A DNA stretch of 64,000 bases from Frankia sp. AgB1.9 (lineage in GTDB: Bacteria > Actinomycetota > Actinomycetes > Frankiales > Frankiaceae), in assembly GCF_016786355.1 (NCBI RefSeq), contig NZ_JADWYX010000049.1, positions 1 to 64,000 of the forward strand, in the 5' to 3' direction. A program made the position numbers and the translations under genes. Of this stretch, positions 3,743 to 59,074 are shown piece by piece. Each line of letters starts with the position of its first letter. Position 1 is the stretch's first letter. The notes under the pieces are model-generated. The model had not been told where the DNA came from. It saw nothing but the letters and a program-made list of their open reading frames with translations, and made no database searches.

Positions 3743-3763
3743 GTTTGTTGTCTCCTCGGCTGT

Positions 3764-3914
3764 GCCATCCAGGGCCAACCGCAGGCCTGCCGTCCAAGGC
3801 CAACGGCGGGCCTGCCAGCTCTGGTCAACTGCGGGGCCTGCCATCCCTGGCCGACGGCGGGCCTGTCATCCCTGACCAACCGCGGGCCTGATGTCCACGG
3901 CCAACTGCGGGCCT
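3764..3914. repeat. Six 25-bp tandem repeats in the sdhC leader
   Basis: Six head-to-tail units start at 3764, 3789, 3814 (26 nt), 3840, 3865 and 3890. Each resembles GCCATCCNTGGCCAACNGCG followed by GGCCT. Units differ from one another at several positions, so the array is old rather than freshly amplified. It ends 21 nt upstream of the sdhC start codon and must lie in the promoter or 5' leader of the operon. Confidence 0.9.
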
Positions 3915-4196
3915 GGCGCCGCGGTGGGCTGCCCGCCGCCGGCCCGCTGCCGCGGAGCCGCTCGGGAGCCCCGCGGGAAACGCGGATGCCACGCGGGCTC
4001 ACCCGGGGGCGGCATCGCGTGGCCCGTGGCGCGCGGCTGCGCGGACCCTCTGGCCCCGAAGTGGGGTGCGCCCCTCTATATGACTGCTCAGGCGCAGAGG
4101 GTCCGTGTGCTGCACATCACGGCCCACGGCGCAGTCTGGCCGATCTCCGATCGGTTGACCAGAGTCTTCGAGGAACGTGTTCTCGTTTCGCAGTCC

Positions 4197-4272
4197 CCGG
4201 CGCCAAGCCGGCGCCGCGGCAGCGCTGGGTCAGCGCTGGGTCGAAGCCGCAGCGGCGCCGGCTTGGCGCCGG
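4197..4272. repeat. Perfect 21-bp inverted repeat with 34-nt loop
   Basis: The left arm 4197-4217 and right arm 4252-4272 are perfect complements built from CCGGCGCCAAGCCGGCGCC. The loop contains the 11-nt direct repeat CAGCGCTGGGT twice. Such a stem could act as terminator for the upstream aldo/keto reductase or block readthrough into sdhC. Confidence 0.8.
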
Positions 4273-4296
4273 CTTGGCGCGGAGGCGGCGGCGGCT

Positions 4297-4371
4297 TGAT
4301 CGCTGTTTCGGCCCTGGTATGGCTGTAAACCGGTCCCGATCACGACCACCAGAGGGCCAAAACGACGATCA
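4297..4371. repeat. Dispersed 75-nt palindrome, copy A
   Basis: Imperfect inverted repeat running from TGATCGCTGTTTCGGCCCT to AGGGCCAAAACGACGATCA. It is the same length as five other copies in the window and lies 102 nt 3' of the aldo/keto reductase stop. Confidence 0.85.
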
Positions 4372-4473
4372 CCTGAGGTCCGCCGGCCAGCGGGCAGCGG
4401 ACGACGTCGGCCAGGCGGCCGGCAACGCCGCGGACGTCGGACCAGGTGAAACGCGGGCCCGCCGCTCCAGCCC

Positions 4474-5523
4474 TCAGGTCGCCTGCCGGCGCTCGGCCTT
4501 CCGCCGGCGCCGGGCCGGGTTGGTCAGCGCGGGCGAGATCCAGCCGGCGTCGGCCGAGTTGATGTTCGTGCCCGGCGGGACGAGCTCGTCGATCCGGTCG
4601 AGGGTCGCGTCGTCGAGGGTCACGTCGGCCGCGGTCAGCTGGCTTTCGAGGTGCTCCATCGTGCGCGGGCCGATGATCGCGGAGGTCACCGCCGGGTGGC
4701 GGATGACGAACGCGATCGCCAGCTCGATCAGGCTGATCCCGGCCTCAGCCGCCACCTCGGCCAGCTCGATGGCCAGTTCGGCCTTGCGGCGGTTGGTCGC
4801 AATCGTCATATCAAACCGCTGCGGAATCCGCTCGGCCCGGCTGCTCGTGACGTCCAGCCCGCTGTCACGGGTGTAGCGGCCGGAAAGGTAGCCGCCAGCC
4901 AGTGGGCTCCAGGGCAGCACCCCCATGCCGTACTTCTGCGCGACCGGCAGCAGATCGGCCTCGATGCCGCGGACCAGAATCGAGTAGGGCGGCTGCTCGG
5001 TGACGAAGCGCTCCCGGCCGCGCTTCTCGGCCACCCACTGCGCCTCGACCACCTCGTGCGCCGGGAACGTGGAGCTGCCGAAATAACGGATCTTGCCGGC
5101 CCGCACCAGGTCGGTGAGCGCTCCGAGCGTCTCGTCGATCTCGGTCGTCGGGTCGGGCCGGTGCACCTGATAGAGGTCGATGTAGTCGGTGTCGAGGCGG
5201 CGCAGGCTGTTCTCGCACTCCTGGATGAGCCAGCGCCGGGACAGGCCGCCCCGGTTCGGGCCCTCGCCCATCGGCATGTACGCCTTCGTCGCGAGCACGA
5301 CGTCGTCGCGGCGGCCGGCGAGCGCCTTACCGACGATCGTCTCCGACTCGCCGGCCGAGTAGACGTCGGCGGTGTCGATGAAGTTGACCCCCGCGTCCAG
5401 GGCCCGGTGAATGATCTTTATTGACTCGTCGTGGTCGGGGTTGCCCCAGGCGCCGAACATCATCGCGCCCAGGCACAGTGGGGTAACCCGCACGCCAGTG
5501 CGGCCGAGTACTCGATAGTTCAT
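4474..5523 (-). CDS. Aldo/keto reductase
   Basis: Encodes 349 aa, a predicted NADPH-dependent oxidoreductase of the AKR superfamily (TIM barrel), acting on aldehydes or ketones in the cytoplasm. The catalytic tetrad is visible: Asp and Tyr in DTADVYSAGESE, Lys in VVLATKAY and His in LYQVHRPD. The C-terminal cofactor-binding segment (SAIIGPRTMEHLE) is intact. The start at 5523 gives the conserved opening MNYRVLGRTG; an upstream extension would read antisense through the neighbouring gene. It is transcribed divergently from the amidohydrolase gene with only 25 nt between the two start codons. Substrate cannot be told from sequence. It most resembles the L-glyceraldehyde 3-phosphate reductase/general stress AKR branch. 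Confidence 0.9.
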   Translation of the reverse strand: MNYRVLGRTGVRVTPLCLGAMMFGAWGNPDHDESIKIIHRALDAGVNFIDTADVYSAGESETIVGKALAGRRDDVVLATKAYMPMGEGPNRGGLSRRWLIQECENSLRRLDTDYIDLYQVHRPDPTTEIDETLGALTDLVRAGKIRYFGSSTFPAHEVVEAQWVAEKRGRERFVTEQPPYSILVRGIEADLLPVAQKYGMGVLPWSPLAGGYLSGRYTRDSGLDVTSSRAERIPQRFDMTIATNRRKAELAIELAEVAAEAGISLIELAIAFVIRHPAVTSAIIGPRTMEHLESQLTAADVTLDDATLDRIDELVPPGTNINSADAGWISPALTNPARRRRKAERRQAT

Positions 5524-5548
5524 CGTCACGTGGGTTAAGCATTGTCGC

Positions 5549-6691
5549 GTGGCGAACACATGGCAATCAGGGGGCCGCCGGCCGGAAGTCCTCCATGTCG
5601 TCGGCCGGGTCCTGGTCGGGCCGACGGAGGTCCGCGACGAGCTGTGGGTCGTCGGTGACCGGATCACGTTCGCCGCCCCAACCGGCCCGGCCGACGTCCG
5701 CACCATCCGGGGCTGGGTGCTGCCCGGCCTCGTCGACGCCCACTGCCACGTCGGCCTCGGCAAGCAGGGCGCCGTCGACCAGGAGACCACCCTCGCCCAG
5801 GCGGTGGCCGACCGGGACGTCGGCGCCCTGCTGCTGCGCGATGCCGGCTCGCCAGCGGACACCCGCTGGATCGACGACCGCGACGACCTGCCCCGACTCG
5901 TCCGCGCCGGCCGACACATCGCCCGCAGCCGCCGCTACATCCGTAACTACGCCGAAGAGGTCGAGCCGGACGGCCTGGCCGCCGAGGTGGTCCGGCAGGC
6001 CGGGCGGGGCGACGGTTGGGTGAAGCTCGTCGGCGACTGGATCGACCGCTCCCTCGGCGACCTCGCGCCCTGCTGGCCGTCCGAAGCCGTCGCCGAGGCG
6101 ATCGCGGCCGCGCACGCCGCCGGCGCCCGGGTGACCGCGCACTGCTTCGCCGAGGACTCGCTGCCCGACCTCGCCGCCGCGGGCATCGACTGCGTCGAAC
6201 ACGCGACCGGCCTGTCCGACGACACCATCGCCGTCTTCGCGGCCCGCGGCATCGCGATCGTCCCGACGCTGGTCAACATCGCCACGTTCCCCGAGATCGC
6301 CGCCCCAGCAGAGGACCGGTTTCCCTTGTACTACAAGCACATGCTCGCGTTGCACGCCCGTCGGTACGCGACCATCGGCGCCGCCTATGACGCGGGCATC
6401 CCCATCTACGTCGGCACCGACGCGGGCGGTTCGCTGCCGCACGGCCTCGTCGGGGCCGAGGTCGCCGAGCTGGTCAAGGCCGGCCTGCCCCCGCTCGCCG
6501 CCCTCGCGGCCGCGACGTGGTCGGCCCGAGCCTGGCTCGGCTTCCCCGGTCTGGATGAGGGTGCCCCCGCCGACCTCGTCGTCTACCCCGAGGACCCGCG
6601 AGCCGCCCCCGCGGTCCTCGCCGCCCCCGACCTCATCGTCCTGCGCGGCCAGCCGCTCACGGGAAAGGGCCTGGACCATCCCGGCGTCTGA
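5549..6691 (+). CDS. Metal-dependent amidohydrolase
   Basis: Encodes 380 aa, starting at GTG 5549. Amidohydrolase superfamily (imidazolonepropionase/prolidase-like). The first metal site HxH is in LVDAHCHVG. A candidate bridging Lys lies in WVKLVGDW, further His ligands in VTAHCFAE and CVEHATG, and the conserved Asp in YVGTDAGG. The N- and C-terminal beta-sandwich strands (VVGDRITFAAP, GAPADLVVYPEDP) are complete. The substrate is unknown. The gene is divergent from the aldo/keto reductase with 25 nt between starts, so their promoters must overlap the other gene's 5' end, or transcripts are leaderless. Confidence 0.88.
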   Translation: MANTWQSGGRRPEVLHVVGRVLVGPTEVRDELWVVGDRITFAAPTGPADVRTIRGWVLPGLVDAHCHVGLGKQGAVDQETTLAQAVADRDVGALLLRDAGSPADTRWIDDRDDLPRLVRAGRHIARSRRYIRNYAEEVEPDGLAAEVVRQAGRGDGWVKLVGDWIDRSLGDLAPCWPSEAVAEAIAAAHAAGARVTAHCFAEDSLPDLAAAGIDCVEHATGLSDDTIAVFAARGIAIVPTLVNIATFPEIAAPAEDRFPLYYKHMLALHARRYATIGAAYDAGIPIYVGTDAGGSLPHGLVGAEVAELVKAGLPPLAALAAATWSARAWLGFPGLDEGAPADLVVYPEDPRAAPAVLAAPDLIVLRGQPLTGKGLDHPGV

Positions 6692-7071
6692 CGCCTTCGG
6701 CGTCTGTCGATCAGGTGCGTCGGCGATTCGGCCTGGCAGCGGGCCGTAGTTCAACGATCCGGAGTGTGCTCTGCCCGGTGCTCGGCCCGGCGGTCTCGTC
6801 ACGAAGGCGGACGGCGGGCTCCCGGCCTCCCTGCGCTCCCTCCGCTGACCGTCGCCACGGGCAGACTCGCGCTGCCCGTCTCGCAGCCCTCGCAGCCCTC
6901 CCAGATCGACGGCCCCTCCGGGTGATCGCGGTTTGTGCCCTCCCATGGTCGTAATCGAGGCCGCCCTACAACCACGGGAGGGCCTAAACCCCGATCAAGA
7001 GAGCTCGGAGCCGTCCACAGGGCGAGCGGAGACCGCTGCCACGGGGGCTGATCGGGTGCAGAGTGCGGGGC
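6692..7071. other. Intergenic region containing palindrome copy B
   Basis: No gene seen. It begins with a short GACGCC-TTC-GGCGTC hairpin (6690-6704) overlapping the amidohydrolase stop and contains a dispersed palindrome copy at 6923-6997. The rest is unremarkable GC-rich sequence. Confidence 0.55.
6923..6997. repeat. Dispersed 75-nt palindrome, copy B
   Basis: Runs from TGATCGCGGTTTGTGCCCT to GGGCCTAAACCCCGATCA. It is nearly identical to copy C at 8062-8136, sharing the loop ATCGAGGCCGCCCT and the CTCCGGG just upstream. The two lie in direct orientation on either side of a broken gene. Confidence 0.88.
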
Positions 7072-8021
7072 ATGAGGGTGGAGGGGAGAGCGCTTCCGGA
7101 TGGGGGGTACGCGGGGATGGCCGAAACGCTTCGGATCGCCGGGCGCCAGCACGGCATGGTCACCTATTCGCAGGCACTGGGATCGGGGCTGAGCCGGGGG
7201 CAGGTCCGCCAGCTCGTCCGGACCGGTGCCTAGGTTCGTCCGTTCCCGGACGCCTACCTCGTCGCGGGCGCTGACGCCTTCCTCGGGCGAGTCCACGCGG
7301 CGGTGAGTCGACGGCCGGGGGCGGTGGTGTGTGGCCTGACGGCCGCCCGGCTGCACGGTCTACGCGCGCTCCCTGCGCCGCAGCCGGCTGAGCCGGTAAG
7401 TCTTTCCGTCGACGGGTCGACCAGCCGGTCGGCCACCCCGGGAATCGTCCTGTGCTCCGGGGACCTGCCGGACGCGCAGGTCAGGCGGCGCGACGGCCTC
7501 GCGGTCACCTGCGTGACGCGGACGCTCGCCGATCTCGTCCTCCACTGGGACGGCCGGCGGCTGTCGCTCTGTTGGACGCGGCGGCGCATGACCGCCGGTT
7601 CCGTGATCTTGCCGAGGTGGGTGCACTGCTGCTCGGCCGGCACGGCGCCCCGGTCCGGGTCCGATGGCTGGCCGACGTCGATGCCCGAGCCGAGTCTCCG
7701 CTGGAGAGCCGGTTACGACTCGCTCTGGCCGACCGTGGGCTGAGGCCGGCCGAGGTGCAGTTCGCCGTCGTAGACGAGGTCGGGCGGCCCGTCGCTCGCG
7801 CCGACCTTGCCTACCCTGAGCAGCGTCTGCTGGTCGAGGCGGACGGCGCCGTTTTCCACCGTGACCACGCTGGCGACCCGCAGCCGCTGTACCGCGATCG
7901 CGAGCGACAGAACGCCTTGGCCCGCCTGGGCTGGACGGTCCTGCGCTTTACATGGTCCGACGTCCTCACCCGGCCTGACGACGTGGCCGACGTCGTCTGC
8001 CGTGCGCTCTCCCGGCCATGA
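7072..8021 (+). pseudogene. Decayed AbiEi-like/DUF559 (Vsr-fold) protein gene
   Basis: When intact this would encode a protein of about 300 aa with an N-terminal winged-helix (AbiEi antitoxin-like) region and a C-terminal DUF559 domain of the Vsr endonuclease fold. Two lesions are visible. An amber TAG at 7231-7233 stands where Trp would suit (RTGA-stop-VRPF). A one-base loss near 7551 moves the frame from ...LVLHWD to RPAAVALLDAAAHDRR. The C-terminal part keeps LLVEADGAVFHRD and ends LGWTVLRFTW, typical of DUF559. The start is ATG 7072 or the in-frame ATG 7117. It is flanked by palindrome copies B and C. Both lesions need confirming in raw reads, but two independent hits argue for real decay. 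Confidence 0.8.
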
Positions 8022-8061
8022 TCGCCTTCTTGGACCGCTCCCGGCGGGCTGCGCCTCCGGG

Positions 8062-8136
8062 TGATCGCCGTTTTGGCCCTCCGGTGGTTGCAATCGAGGC
8101 CGCCCTGCAACCACGGGAGGGCGCAAACCCCGATCA
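8062..8136. repeat. Dispersed 75-nt palindrome, copy C
   Basis: The most symmetric copy: the left arm with TTTTGGCCCTCCGGTGGTTG pairs with CAACCACGGGAGGGCGCAAA. It lies 41 nt 3' of the broken DUF559 gene and 3' of the convergent adenine deaminase gene. It is followed at about 8150-8190 by a short run of repeated GGGCGCC units. Confidence 0.88.
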
Positions 8137-8200
8137 AGCTCGTTCGGGCGCCGGGCGCCGGGCGCGGGGCGCCGGGCGCCGGGCGAGGCGAGGTCGGTGG

Positions 8201-9991
8201 TCAGGCGAGGATGGGGGAGGGGATGAGCTGGCCGGTGGTGCCGTCGATGAGGCCGAGGTCGGTGACGTGGGGGCCGGGAAGGCAGGCCAGGGCCGCGACC
8301 ATGACGTGGAACAGTGGCTGGGTGAGCAGGTGCAGGTCGAGGCCGATCTCGTGGGCCGCCTCGGTCAGCGTTCGTTGGGCGGTGGCGACGTCGGGGGCGG
8401 CCAGCGGGGAGAGGATGCCGGCGATCGGCAGCGCGATCGACGCGGTGACCTTGCCGCCGGACGCGACGGCGACACCCCCACCGGTCGAGATCACCATGTT
8501 GGCGGCGGCGGCCATGTCGACCGGGTCGCGGCCGAAGACGACCAGGTTGTGGGTGTCGTGCGAGACCGACGTGGCGATCGCTCCGGTCCACTCGCCCCAG
8601 CCCGAGATCAGCGCCGCCTGTGGTCGGGCGGAGATCCGGCCGTGGCGGTGGGCCGTCAGCTGGAGCATGTGCCCCGGCGGTGGGACGACGACGCCGTCGC
8701 GGACCTCCGCTTCGACCTCGCCCCACTGGGTGAAGATCGGGCCGGCGAGCACCCGCAGCCGGGCGGTGCCGTTCTCGGTGCCGCCCGGCAGGTCGCCGAC
8801 GCGCAGGACCATGTCGGCCGGCGTGACGGGGCCGATCTTCATGGTGTCCAGCGGCGGCTCGCTGGGCCCCTCTACGACGTCGACGAGCATCAGCCCGCCG
8901 GAGGCGACATGGCGCCCGGCGGTGAAGACGTCGTCGACCGTCACCGTCGCCAGGTCGGAGAGCACGATCAGGTCGGCCTGGCGGCCGGCGGCGACCAGGC
9001 CGAGGTCGGTGCGCTGCAGGCGGTAGGCCGCGTGGTAGGTCGCGATCCGCAGCGCCCGCACCGGGTCGAGGCCGAAGCCGATCAGGCGGCGCAACAGGTG
9101 GTCGACGCCGCCGTCGGTGAGCAGGGTCAGCGCGAACAGGTCGTCGGTCGCCGCGCACAGGTGGGTCGGCAGCTCCGGCAGGGCGTTCAGCTCGGCGACC
9201 AGGCCGGGCAGCAGGTGCTCGAACGCGCCGCGCAGCTCGACGGTCATCCCGCTGCGCAGCTTCTCCATCGCGTCCGGCTCGGCCACGATCTCGTGGTCCG
9301 AGGTGATCCCGGCCGACAGGTACGCCTGCAGCTCGGGGCCGCTCAGGCCGGCGGCGTGGCCGCTGACGATCTTTCCGCTGGCCAGCCCGGCGGCGACGAC
9401 GTCGACCATCCGGCCGTCGCTGGTCAGCACGCCGAGCATGTCCATCACCTCGGCGAGCCCGCCGACCTCGGGCCAGGCGAGCATCTCGGCGACGTCCGGG
9501 CCGAGCAGGTCCGCGCCGGACAGCTCCAGGCCCGGCATGGGCGGCACGCAGGACGGCGCCTGCACGATGAACCGGACCGGCAGGCCCCGGCTCGCCTCGA
9601 CGGCGTAACGAACTCCGGCGAGGCCGGCGACGTTCGCCAGCTCGTGCGGGTCGCCGAAGATCGTCGTCGTGCCTCGCGGGCAGACGGCCGAGGCGTAGGC
9701 GCCGGGCGTCAGCATCGAGCTCTCGAAGTGGACGTGCATGTCAACCAGGCCAGGGGCGACGAACCGGCCGGTCGCGTCGAACACGTCCAGCGCGTCCGTC
9801 CGGCTGCCGGTGGGGTGTACCGACGCGATCAGCGGCCCGACCAGCCCGACGTCGGCCGGGCGCACCTCGCAGGTGCCGACGTCCACGACGCTGCCCCCGG
9901 TGATCAGCAGATCGAACGGGCCGGCGCCCCGGGCGGCGTCGACGGCGCGCTGGCGGATGGCCGGATCGACAGCATCGTTCATGCCGAGCAA
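8201..9991 (-). CDS. ade: Adenine deaminase
   Basis: Encodes 596 aa of the AdeC/Ade amidohydrolase type, which converts adenine to hypoxanthine for purine salvage. The metal motif MHVHFESSM is at about residue 90, with DPHELANV, the carboxy-lysine region and SGHAAGLSG later. The Ade-specific C-terminal domain with SHDTHNLVVFGRD is complete. Length is in the usual 560-600 aa range. The start may be ATG 9991 or ATG 9982 (MNDAVDP), which differ by three residues. It is alone on its strand. Adenine is also a by-product of the methionine-salvage pathway encoded at 19836-23327, but that link is inference. Confidence 0.93.
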   Translation of the reverse strand: MLGMNDAVDPAIRQRAVDAARGAGPFDLLITGGSVVDVGTCEVRPADVGLVGPLIASVHPTGSRTDALDVFDATGRFVAPGLVDMHVHFESSMLTPGAYASAVCPRGTTTIFGDPHELANVAGLAGVRYAVEASRGLPVRFIVQAPSCVPPMPGLELSGADLLGPDVAEMLAWPEVGGLAEVMDMLGVLTSDGRMVDVVAAGLASGKIVSGHAAGLSGPELQAYLSAGITSDHEIVAEPDAMEKLRSGMTVELRGAFEHLLPGLVAELNALPELPTHLCAATDDLFALTLLTDGGVDHLLRRLIGFGLDPVRALRIATYHAAYRLQRTDLGLVAAGRQADLIVLSDLATVTVDDVFTAGRHVASGGLMLVDVVEGPSEPPLDTMKIGPVTPADMVLRVGDLPGGTENGTARLRVLAGPIFTQWGEVEAEVRDGVVVPPPGHMLQLTAHRHGRISARPQAALISGWGEWTGAIATSVSHDTHNLVVFGRDPVDMAAAANMVISTGGGVAVASGGKVTASIALPIAGILSPLAAPDVATAQRTLTEAAHEIGLDLHLLTQPLFHVMVAALACLPGPHVTDLGLIDGTTGQLIPSPILA

Positions 9992-25210: not shown

Positions 25211-25765
25211 TCTTCTCCTCGACGGGTGTCCCGTGGCCCTGGTCGGTTGGATGCCGGTGATCACCGGCCATGACCGCGGGTCTGGCTTCCTCAAGTCCTA
25301 GTGCCGACACCGCCGAGGTCCGCCCGTCGCCTTGATCGCTGTTTGCACCCTCTGGTGGCTCTGAAACAGGCCCGGATACGACCGGCAGAGGGCCGAAATG
25401 GCGATCATGGGGACGCCGGGACGGGCGAACTTGCCGGAGGCGGCACTACCCCGTGGTGGTTCGCGGGCATCGTCTGATGACCATGGGCGACCTCTTCTGG
25501 GAGACGGCGGCGGCCGTCCGGCACCTGGTGCTGACGTAGTCCCGCCGGGACTGGCCCAAGATATTGCCTTGACCCATTTCGGCCAGGGCGCGACGCTCGC
25601 CGGTACGGGAATACCCGGCAGAGGCCGTTCGCTGCGCCAGAGGGCATTCCGTGCCCAGGTCGCGGTCGGCGGCCGACCGCGGATCGGTTGGTGTATGAGA
25701 CCGTCTGTAGGCGGAGAGACCCGACCTCGAACCGCCTCAGCCTCGAATCGGAGAGCCTCGTCGCC
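25211..25765. other. Intergenic region containing palindrome copy D
   Basis: No gene supported. It contains the dispersed palindrome copy at 25333-25407 and a run of sequence with no family similarity that I recognise. The hrpA promoter must lie here. Confidence 0.5.
25333..25407. repeat. Dispersed 75-nt palindrome, copy D
   Basis: Runs from TGATCGCTGTTTGCACCCT to AGGGCCGAAATGGCGATCA. It lies 122 nt 3' of ndh. The outer arms match the other copies while the centre differs. Confidence 0.85.
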
Positions 25766-31312: not shown

Positions 31313-31387
31313 TGATCGCGGTTTTGGCCCTGGTGTGGTTGTAAAAACGTCCTGATCGCAACCATTCGAGGGCTGAAACAGCGATCA
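31313..31387. repeat. Dispersed 75-nt palindrome, copy E
   Basis: Runs from TGATCGCGGTTTTGGCCCT to GAGGGCTGAAACAGCGATCA. Symmetry extends to CATGATCG and CGATCATG at the ends. It lies 31 nt 3' of the hydrolase gene and 3' of the converging dehydrogenase gene. Confidence 0.87.
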
Positions 31388-58999: not shown

Positions 59000-59074
59000 T
59001 GATCTCTGTTTTGGCCCCCGCATGGTCACAGAACCGCTGCGGTTACAGCCACGGCAGGGCGAAAACAGCGATCT
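59000..59074. repeat. Dispersed 75-nt palindrome, copy F
   Basis: Runs from TGATCTCTGTTTTGGCCCC to GGGCGAAAACAGCGATCT. It lies 68 nt 3' of the methyltransferase gene. Both termini carry a T in place of the usual symmetric base (GATCT at each end). Confidence 0.83.

Follow-up and report, generated by a model that had tools for sequence, protein, structure and literature searches.

The window, which is the whole 64,000-nucleotide stretch of Frankia sp. AgB1.9 DNA analysed here, contains a broken gene for an AbiEi_4-like and DUF559 protein between two long hairpins, B and C. The features are listed in Table 1. The left neighbour of this gene is presumably a gene for an amidohydrolase-like protein and the right neighbour one for an adenine-deaminase-like protein. 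The window homologue is 66% and 75% identical to an intact copy in its two frames, respectively. No AbiEii-like partner is noted among the ORFs around the gene, as judged from the ORF list only.

Table 1. Positions of the hairpins, genes and associated sequences in the window
Feature	Position	Strand	Remarks
Solo family member A	4297..4371	+	Sequence comparison within the window
Left neighbour	5549..6691	+	Synteny anchor
Extended flank GCCCCTCCGGG	6912..6922	+	Common to B, C (GCGCCTCCGGG), the C230 copy and the G001 scar
Hairpin B	6923..6997	+	75 nt; left unit boundary
CGTCCACA in 5' leader	7012..7019	+	One base off T[GA]TCCACA, the motif of most f1 leaders
Broken AbiEi_4-like + DUF559 gene	7117..8021	+	Interrupted by an in-frame TAG (7231-7233) and a change of frame near 7551; ends with TGA at 8019-8021
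Remnant of an earlier right-hand hairpin (degenerate left half), then CTCCGGG	8019..8061	+	Starts at the stop codon; TGATCGCC... at 8019, 4 mismatches
Hairpin C	8062..8136	+	75 nt; right unit boundary
Right neighbour	8201..9991	-	Synteny anchor; convergent with the left neighbour
Solo family member	25333..25407	+	Syntenic place in G001 without hairpin
Solo family member	31313..31387	+	Syntenic place in G001 without hairpin
Solo family member	59000..59074	+	Sequence comparison within the window

Hairpins B and C are arranged in direct orientation with their starts 1139 nt apart, and are 85% identical over 97 nt including the upstream CTCCGGG, which confirms the paired palindromes around a broken DUF559 gene that had been described in a sequence-only reading of this locus. 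The statement of the same reading that no other pair is as similar as B and C is correct within the window, in which the family has six full copies and the other four (4297, 25333, 31313 and 59000) are 61-63% identical to B, but does not hold genome-wide, because the closest relative of B is not C but the copy at G000:C230:40195-40284 (92% identity). Hairpin C was not the first hairpin to the right of the gene, because the degenerate half-hairpin still starts at the stop codon. Two further stretches lie to the left of the locus. The 73 nt stretch at 4389-4461 on the minus strand, which is flush with hairpin A and inverted relative to the main gene, matches the 3' end of the DUF559 gene by 71% and reads RFTWSDV..ADVVR in one frame. 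It is possibly a relic of the DUF559 3' end of another unit, and is not recovered by tblastn at E 0.01. A short tandem array with units of approximately 25 bp is present at 3759-3935.

Proteins of the DUF559/AbiEi type are frequent in actinobacteria, where their usual annotation is defence or unknown function. Pfam assigns AbiEi_4 to the N-terminal region and DUF559/MTES_1575 to the C-terminal region of the protein, and many AbiEi matches are found in PADLOC. In a structure model built from 13 named relatives (mean pLDDT of 89.5), residues 1-191 match the AbiEi antitoxin (6y8q) and Rv2827c (1zel) with Z scores of 12.5 and 9.5 respectively, and residues 196-297 match the catalytic domain of I-Bth0305I (3r3p) with a Z score of 10.9 (88 residues, 3.0 A) and Vsr with a Z score of 9.4. 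By sequence alone, the likeness to I-Bth0305I is weak (E 0.7). Glu197, Arg228, Asp230, Glu241, Asp243 and His248 are invariant in 25 relatives, and the acidic residues and histidine among them seem to occupy the positions expected of such a nuclease. According to the model, the protein consists of an AbiEi-like DNA-binding half and a DUF559 half with a nuclease fold of the Vsr/EDxHD type. The Pfam assignment and the model support the AbiEi/Vsr-fold type to which the cargo had been likened.

Site of the unit in sister genomes

The anchor genes are separated by 246 bp with one hairpin in G001, and by 124, 84 and 201 bp with no hairpin in G002, G004 and G005, respectively. G006 has an intact gene at the same site with hairpins on both sides, which have diverged. 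G003 has an intact orthologue and the right-hand hairpin at this site, with a contig break inside the left-hand hairpin. The left hairpin of G003 (at the tail of contig C55 and the head of contig C157) is interrupted by unrelated sequence at this break, perhaps by an inserted element. The full hairpin starts at the TGA codon of the gene in G006, G003 and G004.

The empty site with one palindrome copy that had been predicted from the sequence is present in G001. Among the sites that distinguish B from C, the G001 hairpin with its flanks agrees with B at 21 of 23 to the left of a switch point and with C at 24 of 26 to the right of it, and the switch point is located inside the hairpin. This single hairpin is a deletion scar of the kind that recombination between B and C would produce. 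G001 has therefore lost the unit, because its hairpin is a B/C chimaera. Such a unit would be readily lost by ordinary recombination, with one hairpin left behind, because the hairpins of the pair are in direct orientation.

In a tree of the concatenated neighbours, G000, G001 and G002 are separated from G003, G004, G005 and G006, and the gene is found at the window site on both sides of this split. This distribution is most simply explained by an old insertion at this site followed by losses. That the unit is old here is indicated by the intact orthologues in place in two more distant species, G006 and, across the contig break, G003, by their diverged hairpins, and by a dN/dS ratio of approximately 0.27 between these two genes. 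The ratios between intact copies are approximately 0.23-0.27, so that the protein has been constrained. As an alternative, the sequence-only reading had considered that the repeat was duplicated recently around an insertion. Such a duplication would account for the similarity of B and C, which resemble one another more than any other two copies of the window do and both carry CTCCGGG, but it is very improbable, because the G006 and G003 orthologues occupy the same site, the G001 hairpin is a recombinant of B and C, and the degenerate half of an older hairpin persists at 8019.

The other proposal of that reading, that the gene is carried between the repeats, is supported. The orthologue of a third such species, G004, is likewise intact but is located at another place, again between two hairpins (4650-4724 and 5779-5853 of L094), and this place is empty in G005 and G006. 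At the empty site of G005, the left flank (2920 bp) and the right flank (1520 bp) join with 2 bp between them. The extra segment of G004 is 1.58 kb long and has no clear target duplication. An insertion from hairpin to hairpin is not seen, because the ends of this segment lie 260 and 118 bp outside the hairpins. The sequence past the right hairpin of G004 is similar (82% over 49 bp) to the leader located after the left-hand hairpin in G006, as if a second unit once followed the right hairpin.

Dispersion of the hairpin family

The exact half-site TGATCNCNGTTTNNGCCCT occurs 357 times in the own genome, as compared with 0 times for the reversed pattern, so that the hairpin family is far more numerous than expected by chance. 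The copies number 44 in 800 kb of the sister genome G001 and 45 in 832 kb of G000, corresponding to approximately one per 18 kb and, by extrapolation, to approximately 500 per genome. The hairpins of the window family start with TGATCG and are almost uniform in length, with 75 nt in 47 of the 50 copies that were collected. When 47 copies are compared, 88.7% of the cells of the arms are paired, and the covariation score of the arms is 0.163, which is above all 500 shuffles (0.123 +/- 0.007). Pairs with changes on both sides, in contrast, are no more numerous than in the shuffles. Covariation of the arms can arise without selection, through copying between the arms. A search of the window from 4000 to 9000 against Rfam gives nothing above the gathering score, the only match being MIR5084 with 26.6 bits against a threshold of 110.

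The copies are mostly extragenic, with 8 of 88 located within ORFs. Convergent gene pairs are favoured (29 of 77 intergenic copies versus 238 of 1089 gene pairs) and divergent gene pairs are avoided (7 of 77 versus 239 of 1089). These preferences would be explained if the hairpins are ordinary dispersed repeats and bidirectional terminators that are spread by another enzyme or by recombination, with the DUF559 gene as a passenger. Many copies are also present in genomes without a close cognate gene, as this explanation would allow: at least 150 hits are obtained in G001 and at least 131 in G002, where both-strand hits of one copy are counted twice, and a homologue search finds no intact close cognate gene in either genome. 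However, orphans left after loss of the gene would also explain these hairpins, and the G001 scar is an example of such a loss. The passenger explanation is likewise favoured by ordinary ORFs that are bracketed too, because 3 of 903 have a family hairpin within 400 bp on both sides. At this frequency, and at a density of one copy per 18 kb, two members within approximately 1.1 kb of each other are not in themselves unusual. The three bracketed ORFs are located at G000:C110 9126-10281 and at offsets 173905-174940 and 751405-753229 of G001 (counted from 6550001), and the hairpins around the first of them are also mutually alike (score 23).

When G000 and G001 are compared, intergenic stretches are often wholly different, for example at G000:C110 10430, with ends that are not clean. 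Such stretches contain a hairpin in one genome and either none or another hairpin in the other. No target duplication is apparent at the polymorphic solo sites, whose ends are unclear.

Hairpins beside related nuclease genes

A subset of the DUF559 genes is associated with paired hairpins. In the strict test, an inverted repeat is required on each side of the gene and the two must be alike. Eight of the 46 DUF559 homologues sampled as family f1 (L094, L098, L104, L215, L217, L226, L241 and L249) are positive in this test, as compared with 1 of 351 ordinary genes (Fisher p of 1.5e-7). Inspection adds L090, L091, L097, L099 and L251, L097 by eye only, to give 13 of 46. The other 38 of 46 fail the strict test. 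The hairpin sequence varies between gene lineages and matches within a pair. For example, the left and right hairpins of L241 and L249, which are from other genera, are almost identical. The right hairpin usually begins at the stop codon or just past it. In a count of 5 of 26, for which the bracketed ordinary ORFs mentioned above are the control, one of the five is L091. The left hairpin of L091 is truncated at a contig break and is detected by nhmmer only, and without this locus the count becomes 4 of 26; the control was scored by nhmmer and not by the covariance model. Among 23 named loci, L305 and L306 repeat L094 and L091 respectively, and among the 11 of the 23 that are new (L317-L327) one pair is found, at L324 (Tessaracoccus). 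Random bracketing is unlikely to be the whole story, given the control frequencies for ordinary genes and ordinary ORFs.

Outside f1, 30 loci were scored in the strict test, and 4 of them are positive (L296, L298, L301 and L366). In a looser test, 10 of 20 genes of other families have cognate direct repeats at the gene ends, most of which fold as hairpins. For each of these 10, no more than 4 of 380 mismatched pairs score as high or higher, and a direct-repeat score of 20.4 is reached by 18 of 505 ordinary genes. The 20 genes were taken from PF18741 matches, which are mostly large proteins, as frames of approximately 275-385 amino acids, and were chosen by size and not by their flanks; one of them has a shorter start after trimming. 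The strict test misses pairs detected by the looser test, because their D-side hairpins score under the threshold. These results indicate that bracketing is common but not general, so that no claim is made for the whole protein family.

Two further hairpins are dispersed like that of the window in genomes that have the gene, intact or broken. One is a hairpin of family f4 beside a gene that we take to be leuS-like from its C-terminus. Among 12 genomes searched, it gives 24/26, 14/16, 14/17, 15/17 and 12/11 hits per strand in G208, G271, G299, G081 and G292 respectively, and 0 or 1 hits in the other seven. The cognate f4 protein is present with at least 71% identity in exactly these five genomes (p of 0.0013), and with at most 63% identity in the other seven, G112 having no match. 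Because the species are related, this agreement represents one or a few events and not five. The other is the hairpin beside the gene at G000:C88. Three full copies are present in the 0.83 Mb of G000 that were searched, whereas the 0.80 Mb of G001 contain none, and the homologues listed for G001 comprise a single, different one and no orthologue of this gene. A dispersed family of perfect hairpins, GATCGGGTGGATTCGGGG, which is the second such family in G000 and is observed at G000:C110 57616, C230 8773 and C223 3277, likewise lies upstream of this DUF559-like gene. If the DUF559 gene were a passenger of hairpins spread by other means, hairpins specific to a pair in separate lineages and the exact co-occurrence in 5 of 12 genomes would be unexpected, and we regard this explanation as rather unlikely.

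The leader motif T[GA]TCCACA, which resembles the actinobacterial DnaA box, is present in 33 of 46 f1 genes versus 4 of 905 control genes, and in 4 of 20 genes of the other-family set. At L094 and other DUF559 loci it is located approximately 80-210 bp upstream of the start of homology, sometimes with an inverted partner, TGTGGACA/TGTGGATA, 17 bp away. Because this motif and the upstream hairpins sit in the leader, and because the protein has an AbiEi fold with its PADLOC matches, the hairpins could be regulatory sites of the AbiEi-like half, an operator upstream and a terminator downstream, in an immobile defence or toxin-antitoxin gene. This is improbable, because regulation explains neither a second near-identical copy past the stop codon nor hundreds of dispersed copies between unrelated genes, and an AbiEii-like partner is not noted in the ORF list of the window locus.

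Possible mechanism and relation to known systems

We favour, as the reading that is somewhat better than even, that the window contains the decayed form of a unit composed of a hairpin, a leader, a nuclease gene and a second hairpin, in which hairpin and enzyme are partners as in REP/RAYT systems, with a different enzyme. The AbiEi-like half would bind the long inverted repeat as a dimer, and the nuclease half would cut it as a DNA hairpin, cruciform or duplex. Repair from another copy would then spread the hairpins and, in some cases, the entire unit. In this arrangement the hairpins would depend on the nuclease as non-autonomous partners, in the way that REPs depend on RAYT, but through unrelated chemistry. 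Against this reading, most relatives are negative in the strict test, G001 and G002 have many hairpins although no intact close cognate gene is found in them, the extra segment of G004 ends outside its hairpins, and the polymorphic solo sites have no clean ends. More broadly, and only tentatively, AbiEi-Vsr fusion nucleases may drive a class of mobile bacterial hairpins, each recognizing and cutting its own hairpin and multiplying it, and occasionally its own bracketed gene, by break repair.

RAYTs are described as Y1 (HUH) transposases of REP/REPIN sequences in the available text of PMC3116915, PMC3733652 and PMC2817692, and REPs as palindromes of 20-40 nt with a GTAG/CGTC tag in that of PMC3733652. 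As in the systems so described, the hairpins analysed here are high-copy, extragenic and intergenic, and each type is located beside its own nuclease gene. In contrast, the enzyme has AbiEi and DUF559/Vsr folds and no Y1 HUH transposase domain, the hairpins are 75 nt long (approximately 50 nt in f4), and the gene is flanked by a directly oriented pair of copies. The window system therefore works like REP/RAYT but is not a member of that family, because neither the enzyme nor the repeat is of the REP/RAYT type. Should the proposed mechanism hold, the system would form a separate class.

Within the literature searched, no paper on DUF559 genes with hairpins is found, and a term search of one paper on Frankia insertion sequences (PMC2770080) gives no hit for 'palindrom' or for 'REP' as whole words. 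Together with the frequent bracketing of related genes of other actinobacteria by hairpins of their own, this suggests an enzyme-plus-hairpin system that has not been described before and that may spread its hairpins or itself. If these proteins act on their own hairpins, many unexplained intergenic hairpins gain an origin and an enzyme, and the spread of REP-like repeats can be tested in a second, independent system by a simple assay with a protein and its cognate hairpin.

Three other systems are comparable in part. The GC clusters of yeast mitochondria are described as mobile, proliferating, non-autonomous palindromes that differ between close strains (PMC4478555). They resemble the hairpins in that non-autonomous palindromes spread, but are mitochondrial, and no bracketed nuclease gene is stated in the available part of that source. 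The AbiE type IV toxin-antitoxin system differs in that the nuclease is fused here and no AbiEii partner is seen in the ORF list of this locus, and is similar in the N-terminal and middle domains, as seen from the matches to 6y8q and 1zel. Free-standing EDxHD homing endonucleases differ in that the N-terminal half is AbiEi-like here and the genes are chromosomal, between dispersed hairpins, but they share the nuclease fold. According to the available text of PMC3943268, I-Bth0305I, which is one of them, binds its target, which is nearly 60 bp long, as a dimer. This size is comparable to that of the hairpins, and such a dimer would fit a long inverted repeat.
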